Assembly (NCBI GenBank): GCA_016926805.1
Contig: JAFGNV010000090.1
Span: 62,001-126,000, forward strand
DNA: 64,000 nucleotides
Source of the DNA: Anaerolineae bacterium
GTDB taxonomy: Bacteria > Chloroflexota > Anaerolineae > 4572-78 > J111
Direction of reading: 5' to 3'
Of this stretch, positions 6,912-11,283 are shown in pieces (positions within the stretch are counted from its first letter, which is position 1; each line of letters starts with the position of its first letter). A model generated the notes under the pieces. It made no database searches. It saw only the letters and a program-made list of their open reading frames with translations, and was not told the DNA's origin. A program made the position numbers and the translations under genes.

Positions 6912-8696
6912 TTATTGTGAAGAATCTTTTCCGTTGCTGCGATAGAGTTCTGCCAGCGCGTCGCGCATCTCTTGCACCCAGCCGGCGTGCTCACTCTGAA
7001 GCACATCTTCGGTGTTCTCGACCAGTTTCTCAAAGTTACGCGGCTCGGCCTTTTGCTTATCAGGCAGGGCATACCACCACAGGCGAACACTCTCCAAATC
7101 GGCGGCGGCCTGGTTATAGATGGTCAGAGTGGTTTCGGTTTGTCTCAATTCCAGGAGAGCGGTCAGGGCGCCCGCGATAGCCACGGTTACGGCAATCCAG
7201 ATTTCAAGCCCAATTGCGGCCAGAAACGTACCAATCCCCCCAAGTATAAAAATCCACCAGTGGAGTCTTTTTGACTGTTGGTCGAGATGAACAACTCTCC
7301 CCTGGAACCACTGGTACTGGTGTTCAAGGCGCCAGGTAAGGTATTGCTCAGGGTTCAAATCGGAAAATCCATCATCACCCTCGGCCACAGCGGGTGGGGG
7401 AGGAAGCCCGATCCCCGTATAAGGTTTGAGACTACTCTGGTTGACCTCGGACTTCATGAGACTTTGGCTGATTAGCTTAACCTTGCGGGCCAGCTTGCTC
7501 TCGCGGGTTTCAACTGTATTTGTTTGCTTCTGGCTATAAATTTCGGCCCGCGTCCGGTAGCGATAAATTTCTCTTTTGATGGCCTCGGCGCTGCTGCGCA
7601 ACAAGATCCAACCAACGCCCCTGGCAAATTTAACCGAGCCTGCCGACAAGATACTCACCAGGATCGGCGCGGCAATGACCAGGAATCTGAGATAGAAATT
7701 TGTCTGAACAACGATGGGATTCTCAAAAGGTTCCAGAAATGAATACAACACAGCCAAAGTGGTGGCAATAACGCCCAAACCCAAAATCCATTTGCGCAGA
7801 CGAAGGTAAAACTTCTCAAGGTTAATAGCATTTTGATCATAAACCGCAAAACGCTTCCAGGCATCTTCCAGGGTCGAAGATGTTTTTAACTGGCGCAATT
7901 GATTTCTCAGCAATTGTTGCAACTCGGCCACCGAACCATCCAGCCGGAAAAAGTGGAGATGCCCCTCGTCAATAATTTCGGCCATAGTGGGGTCGACCCG
8001 TTTCTCCCGCCAGGGCATCCAGTCCAGAATTTTGTTAAGTCCCTTTCCTTGCCTCTGTTTTCGCTGCCATAGTCTGGCAATTTCATCGGCCAGCCGGCCG
8101 CTGTTTTGAATGACAATCACGGGCCAGCCTTCGCGCACGCTGCGCAATATCTCCTGTTTGGCCAAACTTCCGCCATTGACCAACACCGTTACCACCGGAA
8201 TGTTTTGGGCTAACGCAGCAGGAATATCGTACATTGTTTTAGTTTCACCACCCCATTTATCACTATCTACCAGCACAAAATGGGAATGGTTAGGCTCAAG
8301 GGGCGTTTTACCCTGGCCGGTGCCATCGGGCAAAACAACCTGCCCCGCCGGAACCACCCCCAGCAGTGGCGTTTTGTGTCCCCGGTCGGCCACGCCCTGG
8401 CCCATCATCGCCATCACCCCGGATTGAGTCCCGCCGTCAATAATCAGCGCGTCCAATTCAAGGGCAACCCGGGCAACTCCCCGGCTAAAAAGCTGGCTCA
8501 GGCGTGATCTAAATTTATCGCCAAGACCGCTTGCTCCTCCAGAAATTATGATGATGGCTTCAGGCCGGGGAATCTCCAAAGCGTTGAAAACGTCGGTGGG
8601 CTGAGCGCTGGTCGGCGGGGCAACTAGGCGGGCTTGATTTCCGTTTGGAAATTGAATTTCCTGACTATGGCTGGCTTGGTCTACAGGTTGACCCAT
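6912..8696 (-). CDS. SLOG (LSDAT-type) domain fused to two SLATT-like two-helix membrane modules
   Basis: A 594-residue protein. Residues 40-215 form a Rossmann-like SLOG domain of the LSDAT type known from the TRPM channel N terminus: SGGASGLGD (52-60), DGGTQSGVM (87-95), NHSHFVLVD (136-144). Two membrane hairpins follow (about 303-352 and 481-513), each inside a helical segment resembling DUF4231/SLATT. Comparative studies place SLOG-SLATT proteins among predicted nucleotide-sensing conflict systems, where SLOG binds a nucleotide and SLATT acts in the membrane; function here is inference. The start at 8696 was chosen because AGAGGAGG lies 6 nt before it; the upstream ATG at 8726 would place that site inside the gene. 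It is monocistronic with its own promoter. Confidence 0.82.
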   Translation of the reverse strand: MGQPVDQASHSQEIQFPNGNQARLVAPPTSAQPTDVFNALEIPRPEAIIIISGGASGLGDKFRSRLSQLFSRGVARVALELDALIIDGGTQSGVMAMMGQGVADRGHKTPLLGVVPAGQVVLPDGTGQGKTPLEPNHSHFVLVDSDKWGGETKTMYDIPAALAQNIPVVTVLVNGGSLAKQEILRSVREGWPVIVIQNSGRLADEIARLWQRKQRQGKGLNKILDWMPWREKRVDPTMAEIIDEGHLHFFRLDGSVAELQQLLRNQLRQLKTSSTLEDAWKRFAVYDQNAINLEKFYLRLRKWILGLGVIATTLAVLYSFLEPFENPIVVQTNFYLRFLVIAAPILVSILSAGSVKFARGVGWILLRSSAEAIKREIYRYRTRAEIYSQKQTNTVETRESKLARKVKLISQSLMKSEVNQSSLKPYTGIGLPPPPAVAEGDDGFSDLNPEQYLTWRLEHQYQWFQGRVVHLDQQSKRLHWWIFILGGIGTFLAAIGLEIWIAVTVAIAGALTALLELRQTETTLTIYNQAAADLESVRLWWYALPDKQKAEPRNFEKLVENTEDVLQSEHAGWVQEMRDALAELYRSNGKDSSQ

Positions 8697-8733
8697 GAGA
8701 AACCTCCTCTGGAAATAATGATGCACTTGGTCA

Positions 8734-8762
8734 ATTATAAACCGGACACGACGAAATTACAA
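8734..8762 (-). promoter_or_regulatory. Sigma-70-like promoter of the SLOG-SLATT gene
   Basis: Reading the minus strand: TTGTAA, 17 bp, TATAAT (8739-8734). The predicted transcript starts near 8727 and gives a leader of about 30 nt carrying the AGGAGG site. Confidence 0.6.
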
Positions 8763-8892
8763 CTTTATGTTAAGAAATGAAACGCGAAACGTTTCAACAA
8801 CTCCTGAGTAAGGCATAATCTCATAAATTTTTGGTTCATGTCAAGTACAAGTGCCAATGTCCAAATGCAAATAGAAAATTATCAGCACCGTC

Positions 8893-8993: not shown

Positions 8994-9440
8994 CTAAACA
9001 TGAGCCAAATTTTCTTTACCTGCCTCCTCCAGAATGTGCAGCAAGGCCAACCCATAAGCTTCGCTGGCGCCAAACGCCTCAAAGGTTAAGGTGTTGCCAT
9101 GGAACTGAATTTGGCAACGATAACCATCGGTGGTACTGATTAAACTCAAGATTGGTTCCGGCTCGCCGATGAGGCGTTGTTCCAGCAACTCGCGGAGTTG
9201 ACCCTCTGTTGGGAGCCACACCACCTCGGTCACCAGAATATGGTCCAGGGCCCATTCAGCCGCACCGTGAAACTGAACGGCCAGATGCCCGCTCATTTCT
9301 CGCACCAAAATGGTCATATCGCTGATAACAAAAACCGTGTCATCCAAACCACGATCAGGAATGGCGAAAAGATCGTTTTTGGCCGGAGTCCAGTTCAAAC
9401 CGGCCGTTTTCAATTTTTTGGCCAGGGACAGCGAAAGCAT
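8994..9440 (-). CDS. Conserved protein of unknown function
   Basis: A 148-residue soluble protein with no signal or membrane segment. Visible blocks are LFAIPDRGLDDTVFVISD near the N terminus, HGAAEWALD and TEVVWLPTE in the middle, and LTFEAFGASEAYGLALLHIL at the end. I do not recognise an enzyme motif; similar proteins in related bacteria sometimes carry unhelpful pilus-related names. Its ATG overlaps the stop of the MFS gene (TAATG), so the two are translated together. Confidence 0.7.
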   Translation of the reverse strand: MLSLSLAKKLKTAGLNWTPAKNDLFAIPDRGLDDTVFVISDMTILVREMSGHLAVQFHGAAEWALDHILVTEVVWLPTEGQLRELLEQRLIGEPEPILSLISTTDGYRCQIQFHGNTLTFEAFGASEAYGLALLHILEEAGKENLAHV

Positions 9441-10731: not shown

Positions 10732-11283
10732 TTAGTTTTCTATATTCTTCACGGTTAGCGGCAGCCCGGCCACCATAAACAGCACCCGGTCGGCCCGGGC
10801 AGCCAGGTATTGGTTGGCCCGGCCCAGAACGTCGCGATAGAGCCGGCCTAATGAATGGTCCGGCACCAACCCCAGGCCAACCTCATTAGAAACCACAATG
10901 AGCGGAATGTTGAGTTGCTGTTGCATCGCCAGAATACGCTCGATCTCCACCTGGATCACAATTTCAATTGCAGCTTGCGGCTGTGTTTCCATTTCCAGAA
11001 CGATGTTCGAGACCAACAGCGTCAGGCAGTCGAGAATCATTACGTCGAAACGATGGTCAATTTGGGACAGGGCGTCACCTACGTAACGAGGCGCTTCCAG
11101 GGTTTGCCACGAGTCCGGGCGGGCAGCCTGATGGACCGCGATGCGTTCAGCCATTTCTTTGTCTTTGGCTTCGGCGGTGGCGATGAAAAGCACGCGCTGG
11201 CCCATTTCGGCGGCCAATTTTTCGGCGTAGGGACTTTTGCCGCTGCGGGCGCCGCCTAAAATTAACGTCAGTGATGGAGTCAA
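10732..11283 (-). CDS. cobU: Adenosylcobinamide kinase / adenosylcobinamide-phosphate guanylyltransferase
   Basis: A 183-residue CobU/CobP protein with a Walker A loop LGGARSGKS at residues 9-17, the guanylylated-histidine region AVHQAARPDSWQTLEAP, the ILDCLTLLVSN stretch and the family's SNEVGLGLVP. It phosphorylates adenosylcobinamide and transfers GMP in nucleotide-loop assembly of cobalamin. The gene stands alone here; other cobalamin genes are at 55.3, 59.6 and 61.6 kb. I see no cobalamin riboswitch upstream. Confidence 0.95.
   Translation of the reverse strand: MTPSLTLILGGARSGKSPYAEKLAAEMGQRVLFIATAEAKDKEMAERIAVHQAARPDSWQTLEAPRYVGDALSQIDHRFDVMILDCLTLLVSNIVLEMETQPQAAIEIVIQVEIERILAMQQQLNIPLIVVSNEVGLGLVPDHSLGRLYRDVLGRANQYLAARADRVLFMVAGLPLTVKNIEN

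Follow-up and report, generated by a model that had tools for sequence, protein, structure and literature searches.

The DNA analyzed here is a 64,000-nucleotide stretch (hereafter the window) from an Anaerolineae bacterium of the Chloroflexota (GenBank assembly GCA_016926805.1, contig JAFGNV010000090.1, positions 62,001 to 126,000 of the forward strand). On its minus strand, positions 6912 to 8696 encode a 594-amino acid protein in which an LSDAT domain, i.e., a SLOG domain of TRPM type, precedes two SLATT-like membrane modules. We propose, with a probability of roughly 0.5, that the product of this LSDAT-SLATT-SLATT gene is a nucleotide-gated membrane effector, whose LSDAT domain would bind a nucleotide of the ADP-ribose (ADPR) class, gate or cluster the tandem SLATT and so permeabilize the membrane.

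The initial annotation placed the gene at 6912 to 8762. The frame is a genuine minus-strand gene, but 8762 is ruled out as its start because the second codon of that frame is an in-frame stop. The likeliest start, judged from the sequence, is the ATG at 8696, which is preceded by the Shine-Dalgarno-like AGAGGAGG (8703–8710, minus strand); a GTG at 8726 is the alternative.

The LSDAT domain and its relationship to TRPM2

The LSDAT domain (8019–8558, minus strand; residues 47–226) had been recognized in the initial annotation, and the assignment stands. Pfam LSDAT_prok matches with 171.6 bits (E 1.6e-50; cut-off 25.4) and LSDAT_euk with 72.8 bits (cut-off 25.7). The genome of the organism holds a single LSDAT_prok match and a single SLATT_1 match. 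All 47 PDB sequences retrieved at E 0.001 with the N-terminal 245 residues are TRPM channels; one is labelled only MKIAA1616, and its sister entry is titled mouse TRPM3. When a family profile was used instead, human TRPM2 was the top match in the PDB (E 3.3e-23). The AlphaFold2 model of the full protein (23-row alignment; mean predicted local distance difference test, pLDDT, 84.6; predicted template modeling score, pTM, 0.59) consists of a mixed alpha/beta domain up to about residue 251, followed by two long helical hairpins. In the fold comparison, TRPM structures make up 49 of the 50 rows listed (Z 24–27), the better alignments covering about 250 residues (e.g., 7aov with Z 24.5, 258 residues aligned and a root mean square deviation of 3.9). 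The remaining entry, a ciliary chain, bears the name cation channel family protein. A structural model without a nucleotide pocket had been named as grounds for abandoning the assignment; the model obtained has the TRPM-like nucleotide-binding fold of MHR1/2. These comparisons of sequence and predicted fold indicate homology between the LSDAT domain and MHR1/2, the part of TRPM2 that binds ADP-ribose, and the LSDAT domain is a predicted nucleotide binder.

In the MHR1/2 cleft of human TRPM2, as described in excerpts of PMC6759353, Y295 clamps ADP-ribose, R358 touches the phosphates and R302 touches a ribose. Trp148 (8253–8255) aligns with the Tyr295 clamp and Arg201 (8094–8096) with the phosphate contact Arg358, and both pairings are present in the single-sequence and in the profile alignment. 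Position 148 is W in 15 of the 23 aligned rows, with four rows gapped, while position 201 holds R in 12 rows and K in three. An equivalent of R302 at K153, suggested by the single-sequence alignment, was dropped, as the profile alignment places M155 there. Hence, two of the three cited contact positions are kept in the window protein, a feature that is not family-wide. The NHSHF motif (8277–8291; residues 136–140) is shared with TRPM2, and its histidines, H137 and H139, are invariant in the 23 rows, as are G175 and G200; E151 is kept in 18. Conservation of the nucleotide pocket is partial, and different lineages may bind different ligands.

Conserved residues could also point to catalysis. Other SLOG clades are enzymes, according to parts of PMC9503650, and the invariant glycines and histidines together with E151 would suit a nucleotide glycohydrolase or phosphoribohydrolase of LOG-like type, which would break down a signal or NAD, with SLATT acting only as an anchor. 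The closest homologues, however, are the ligand-binding MHR1/2 domains, and tandem SLATT is also found paired with TPR-S and TIR-WD40 proteins where LSDAT is lacking (see below), which suggests that it is more than an anchor. We regard an enzymatic LSDAT domain as very unlikely, and a ligand-sensing domain is preferred.

The membrane half

The initial annotation had read the rest of the protein as two SLATT-like two-helix modules, and profile and model agree with it. The first module (7521–7850, minus strand; residues 283–392) matches DUF4231 with 39.1 bits (Pfam cut-off 24.7). With SLATT_3 the same stretch scores 24.8 bits in Pfam, narrowly under the cut-off of 26.3, and 31.3 against 45 in NCBIfam. 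The second module (6978–7343, minus strand; residues 452–573) matches SLATT_1 with 83.2 bits (cut-offs 26.3 in Pfam and 41 in NCBIfam). By simple hydropathy three stretches pass, 303–321 and 334–352 in the first module and 491–509 in the second. The hairpin of the second module, including the fourth membrane helix, therefore comes from the AlphaFold2 model, in which the helices span 275–321/327–356 and 449–494/499–543. Modeled alone (36 rows), the membrane half reached a pLDDT of 91.0 and a pTM of 0.86.

No housekeeping family in Pfam claims the membrane parts above its cut-off; a match of that kind had been put forward as one that would overturn the assignment. Pfam gave no ion-transport match in the window protein, whose membrane part is SLATT, and no SIR2 or macro match; none of the PADLOC defense models matches it at E up to 10. 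SLATT has been predicted to be a membrane effector regulated by ADPr derivatives in the portion of PMC9503650 consulted, and SLATT effectors are also mentioned in that of PMC7159879.

Distribution and modular arrangement of the family

It was further claimed that proteins of this kind generally carry one SLATT module. In fact, LSDAT_prok, DUF4231 and SLATT_1 all match in each of the 23 full-length proteins of the alignment (the window protein included) and likewise in a protein encoded by a Hymenobacter plasmid. Two SLATT modules are therefore standard in the family, not unusual. Full-length members occur in the taxonomic family of the window organism, in the order of Thiomargarita and on plasmids of Chlorohelix and Hymenobacter. 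The distribution is patchy. In the window's order, 13 of 25 genomes match (including its own and one very weak match), and 17 of 400 sampled across its phylum match any part, again with its own counted. In the order of Thiomargarita, 20 of 42 genomes match, 17 of them with both halves, while the only match among 398 sampled from its phylum is Thiomargarita itself. Searches of annotated phages (tblastn) returned no carriage of the gene; neither did a pattern scan of viral contigs, which finds close relatives only. On the Hymenobacter tibetensis plasmid (L052:11315–14875), the gene is flanked by a glycosyl hydrolase 108 gene and by one with a weak, below-cut-off PG_binding_3 match, an arrangement like that of a holin and endolysin.

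The two halves also occur apart. In a sister family, three of the six genomes searched (G842, G843 and G844) carry LSDAT and tandem SLATT as separate, abutting genes, overlapping by 4 nucleotides (nt) in two genomes and separated by 22 nt in the third; the remaining three gave no match. Such adjoining genes support joint action of the two halves. Moreover, in the same class as the window organism, tandem SLATT is present without LSDAT at 11 loci. At nine of these it directly follows a TIR-WD40 gene on the same strand; the nine TIR-WD40 genes belong to one BLAST cluster (C1), with WD40 repeats identified by Pfam in one member. At one of the other two loci the contig ends inside a C1 gene, and at the last there is no TIR in the stretch read. 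A gene of a TPR-S cluster (C4; Pfam on one member) follows at seven of the 11. In the window's own family, tandem SLATT is fused to TPR-S in six members of one BLAST cluster (Pfam on one), one of them with an internal stop. A TPR-S protein (L037:9495–11798) has a weak PADLOC match to a TIR-type effector (residues 53–168, E 1.5e-5), which Pfam does not report. At another locus (L051:5223–9083, in G192), a standalone LSDAT gene is the first of a run of genes on one strand; the last frame of the run, of 570 amino acids, bears a TIR, and two genes lie between.

Apart from that weak match in the TPR-S protein, the sensor and membrane proteins tested match no PADLOC model, while the TIR parts match generic TIR models. 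The TIR and tandem-SLATT loci are therefore probably not called as a system by PADLOC. Tentatively, and as a possibility that we rate below the proposal made for the single protein, these arrangements could represent a TIR-driven, TRPM2-like signaling family. In this scenario, a TIR-WD40 enzyme would produce an ADP-ribose-type signal, an exchangeable sensor (either LSDAT, fused or as a neighboring gene, or TPR-S) would receive it and a common tandem-SLATT module would respond, with the halves exchanging independently. What is new is the pairing of the parts and the exchange of sensors; no single domain is new. We found no published description of the LSDAT-SLATT-SLATT arrangement in the literature searched, which did not cover the founding 2015 SLATT paper, and its absence from print is not claimed.

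The window protein might itself carry a trace of such exchange. Its LSDAT half is 64.7% identical to that of the congeneric genome G851, compared with 48.1% for the membrane half. The membrane half of the window protein is 39–48% identical to those of all fused relatives, and its nearest counterpart by identity is the separate-gene tandem of G842 (50%). The membrane half of the G851 protein, in turn, is 46–59% identical to those of fused relatives, except for 42% to the Chlorohelix protein. In the LSDAT trees, the window protein groups with G851 (support 94/85; 93/74 in the tree with reduced rows), and the five proteins of its family stand together (95/95). Grouping it with the separate LSDATs was rejected (p 0.0003), and so was a sister relationship of window and G851 in the membrane-half tree (approximately unbiased, AU, test, p 2e-6). 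Two other topologies were not rejected, namely one clade of all fused proteins with the window deepest in the membrane-half tree (p 0.44), and the window outside all other fused proteins in the reduced-row LSDAT tree (AU p 0.16). The groups in these tests were named after the first tree had been seen. Long-branch rows were dropped (L053 from the AU membrane-half, reduced LSDAT and full-length trees; L129 and L050 from the reduced LSDAT tree). These patterns suggest that the membrane half was replaced between lineages or changed faster. The window protein is not taken as a proven recombinant, since neither of the two topologies given above was rejected.

TIR genes beside some full-length loci

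We scanned 26 full-length loci, the window included, for neighboring TIR domains. Five have a TIR domain within 3 kb, in each case downstream and on the same strand. The distance from gene to domain is 30 nt in G810, 34 nt in G811, 128 nt in G821, 575 nt in G808 and 2.3 kb at one of the three copies in G828. Random placement predicts 0.31 such loci on the 24 that are countable (TIR counts for 22 genomes), giving P = 1e-5 for five or more, or P = 0.0025 when the clade G808/G810/G811 is counted once (3 of 22 loci).

In the membrane-half tree, G808, G810, G811, G821 and the G828 copy included there fall in one group (96/93). In the full-length tree, built without the window row, a clade of the TIR-adjacent rows plus G828 is neither drawn nor rejected (AU p 0.29). 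A count of about three independent lineages was accordingly given up, as one origin is not rejected. When four of the stretches (L123, L134, L135 and L136) were compared by blastp (15 frames in G821, 15 in G810, 11 in G808 and 7 in G811), the LSDAT-SLATT-SLATT gene and the TIR gene were the only families in common, which disfavors an inherited neighborhood as the sole explanation. In G810, the single TIR_2 match of the genome is the gene directly after the LSDAT-SLATT-SLATT gene. A catalytic-type glutamate column holds E in all 22 aligned TIR domains, 20 of which come from LSDAT-SLATT and tandem-SLATT loci; we take it to be the NADase glutamate. Collectively, these data make a TIR enzyme a likely partner of the LSDAT-SLATT-SLATT proteins.

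Two further genes were not counted. The TIR-SUMF1 gene on the Chlorohelix plasmid lies 1.2 kb away, with its TIR domain 4 kb off and on the opposite strand. In a 787-amino acid frame (L130:3–2366) beside the C608 copy of G828, the profile calls no TIR. This frame lies on the opposite strand, 62 nt from the full-length copy, and is 46% identical over 267 amino acids to the TIR-WD40 protein of L135.

The neighborhood and genome of the window organism

The 64 kb around the gene carry genes for cobalamin and NAD biosynthesis (the NAD gene names were read from translations), transporters and kinases. A gap of 118 nt, in which no terminator-like site was called, separates the gene from the next same-strand frame downstream, so that the description of the gene as monocistronic is not established. 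Upstream, a sigma-70-like promoter match (TTGTAA-17-TATAAT; 8734–8762, minus strand) is one of two in the region compared with 2.1 expected and is not evidence by itself. Also 5′ of the gene, at 8778–8796, is the inverted repeat TGAAACGTTTCGCGTTTCA, called as a terminator-like site. The initial 11 bases of this repeat have a single occurrence in the window, and it resembles a LacI-family operator. The adjacent frame 8994–9440 encodes a 148-amino acid protein with no Pfam match and has a 141-amino acid relative in the same place in G851. Two NUDIX hydrolase genes that lie side by side at 1745–2919, some 4 kb away, may be there by chance, as NUDIX genes are common; the C-terminal domain of TRPM2 belongs to the NUDIX family as well.

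The initial annotation noted that no nucleotidyltransferase neighbors the gene, and none of signal type is present among the 13 neighboring genes scanned with Pfam; the cobalamin guanylyltransferase CobU is encoded about 2 kb upstream (10732–11283). SMODS (PF18144) has no match in the whole genome, the same profile having given a match in three of 14 control genomes. Seven TIR_2 matches are present, all on other contigs. These proteins carry HEAT repeats (one), pentapeptide repeats (one), a kinase domain with AAA_35 (two), an FGE-sulfatase domain (one) or TIR matches only (two). Supply of the signal in trans is thus possible, and a diffusible TIR product acting in trans would be no less likely than a purely metabolic ligand. 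Together with TIR genes beside relatives above random placement, these matches weaken the suggestion that the protein is self-contained.

A number of points weigh against the proposal of a nucleotide-gated effector with a TIR-derived signal. There is no TIR_2 match on the 165-kb contig of the window (C144), where ordinary metabolic genes surround the gene. Among the relatives, 21 of the 26 full-length loci have no TIR within 3 kb, a count in which six of the 26 have a flank shorter than 1 kb on at least one side and hence some neighbors unseen. One of the five TIR-adjacent loci (L137, the G828 copy) is frameshifted, and two other frames separate it from the TIR gene. The adjacency test was settled on once the pattern had been seen, and its P values treat loci as independent. 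A single origin of the TIR-adjacent loci is possible, and the number of events may lie between one and three; if there was one origin, the chance P of at least one is 0.25–0.27, so that the count alone cannot exclude chance. The control domain, GGDEF, also lies within 3 kb of three of the 26 loci. With regard to the sensor, R302 of TRPM2 is not kept in the window protein, and the R358 equivalent is G, N, D, Q or Y in eight of the 23 rows. Opening of TRPM2 by cyclic ADPR itself is disputed, as far as the excerpt of PMC8949931 goes. With regard to the membrane part, pore formation by SLATT is a prediction in the literature. A profile search of solved structures with tandem SLATT returned nothing at E up to 10, and Foldseek nothing at E 0.001. 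In VIA the highest Z was 8.5 (65 residues), a usual value for helical proteins, and the lack of a match does not make the fold new. Finally, the literature searched held no experiment on any LSDAT-SLATT-SLATT member.

The same surroundings are consistent with a stress or metabolic channel in which LSDAT senses ADP-ribose or another NAD metabolite under oxidative or NAD stress, as TRPM2 does, with no dedicated TIR. The neighborhood is core chromosomal, with no mobile or defense gene among the 13 neighbors (Pfam) and an upstream order (cobU, MFS, the 141–148-amino acid protein, the LSDAT-SLATT-SLATT gene) kept in G851. The contig without TIR_2 and the 21 loci without a TIR within 3 kb point in the same direction. 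So do standalone LSDAT genes at three Chloroflexota loci (L041, L044 and L046), which adjoin Mrp/NUBPL-type ATPase genes and, at two of them, also lie near a PSP1-type gene (Pfam on L046 only). This setting is apparently housekeeping and counts against a defense role for every LSDAT. On the other hand, TIR adjoins some relatives and the LSDAT-free tandem systems, and full-length members reside on two plasmids. A metabolic or stress role without TIR is therefore a serious rival, if on balance an unlikely one, to the TIR-supplied effector.

A third possible source of ligand is suggested by diguanylate cyclases. GGDEF genes lie directly downstream in G400 and G402, and a GGDEF-EAL gene lies directly upstream in G834, all with GGDEF motifs, which raises the possibility that the ligand is a cyclic dinucleotide from the adjoining enzyme. 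However, GGDEF genes are abundant in these genomes (three of 24 loci observed compared with 0.55 expected, P 0.016), two of the three loci are sister rows in the trees and in the window genome GGDEF is matched only once, weakly (E 2.8e-6). Moreover, the TRPM2 pocket binds ADP-ribose (PMC6759353, in part). GGDEF was rejected as a partner, the enrichment being weak once abundance and kinship are allowed for, and a cyclic dinucleotide ligand is accordingly very unlikely. At three Thiotrichales-type loci (L001:1489–6010, L003:7024–11480 and L133:9541–10419), a gene of one cluster lies directly upstream (NTP_transferase by Pfam in L001), and two of these loci have a GGDEF gene directly downstream.

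A proposed model for nucleotide-gated membrane permeabilization

The broad idea of a membrane effector gated by a nucleotide, put forward in the initial annotation, gains support from the domain calls and from the TRPM-like LSDAT fold. In the model that we propose, a TIR enzyme or stress would generate, from NAD, a nucleotide of the ADP-ribose class, which could be ADPR itself or a cyclic or modified derivative. The LSDAT domain would close on this nucleotide, as MHR1/2 does in TRPM2, and binding would bring about a conformational or oligomerization change in the attached tandem SLATT, which has four membrane helices per chain in the predicted structure. The SLATT helices would then reorient and open, the presumed direction of gating, or cluster into a lesion, and the membrane barrier would collapse. 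The resulting leak would lead to dormancy or abortive death, such that the cell is shut down under attack or stress. At some related loci, the source of the signal would be the TIR-WD40 enzyme encoded next door. In the window organism, the most likely source would be one of the seven TIR domains encoded on other contigs, or else the breakdown of NAD during stress.

Comparison with known systems and implications

The window protein resembles TRPM2 in that a homologous N-terminal LSDAT sensor is fused to a membrane part, with the NHSHF motif, the aromatic clamp and the phosphate-binding Arg aligned. It differs in having two SLATT hairpins in place of the TRP ion-channel domain, in lacking NUDT9-H and in the loss of the R302 contact. 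Burroughs, Aravind and colleagues (2015) reportedly predicted SLATT effectors. The window protein shares with these its SLATT_1 and SLATT_3/DUF4231-type modules and the association with SLOG and TIR. Here, however, a tandem of two SLATT types is a conserved unit, the fused sensor is LSDAT and TIR-WD40 and TPR-S are alternative partners.

Thoeris offers two further comparisons, both limited to what excerpts of PMC11204291 describe. In TM-macro ThsA, ADPR causes the macro domains to oligomerize, which is proposed to cluster membrane helices and perturb the membrane; a TIR-made ADPR-type signal and a sensor fused to membrane helices are points of likeness. The window protein differs in that it senses by LSDAT, not macro, has tandem SLATT and has no TIR gene beside it. 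In SIR2-SLOG ThsA, a SLOG domain senses cyclic ADPR isomers, whereas the SLOG clade of the window protein is LSDAT and a membrane effector replaces the SIR2 NADase. The window locus has no TIR gene (ThsB) beside a SIR2-SLOG or TM-macro effector, as Thoeris would, and the genome gives no PF18144 match to the SMODS/CD-NTase gene that marks CBASS.

Among animals, the gating of TRPM2 by ADP-ribose is a central example of ion flow controlled by a nucleotide. ADP-ribose signals are, in turn, produced by TIR domains across bacteria, plants and animals. A TRPM-type sensor on a different membrane module, adjoining TIR genes in some relatives, links these two fields, and the predicted SLATT effector gains a concrete candidate activator. 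Where LSDAT and tandem SLATT are separate genes, sensor and membrane part can be tested apart. The family thus represents a small system in which the idea that a TIR product opens a membrane effector via an LSDAT sensor is directly testable.

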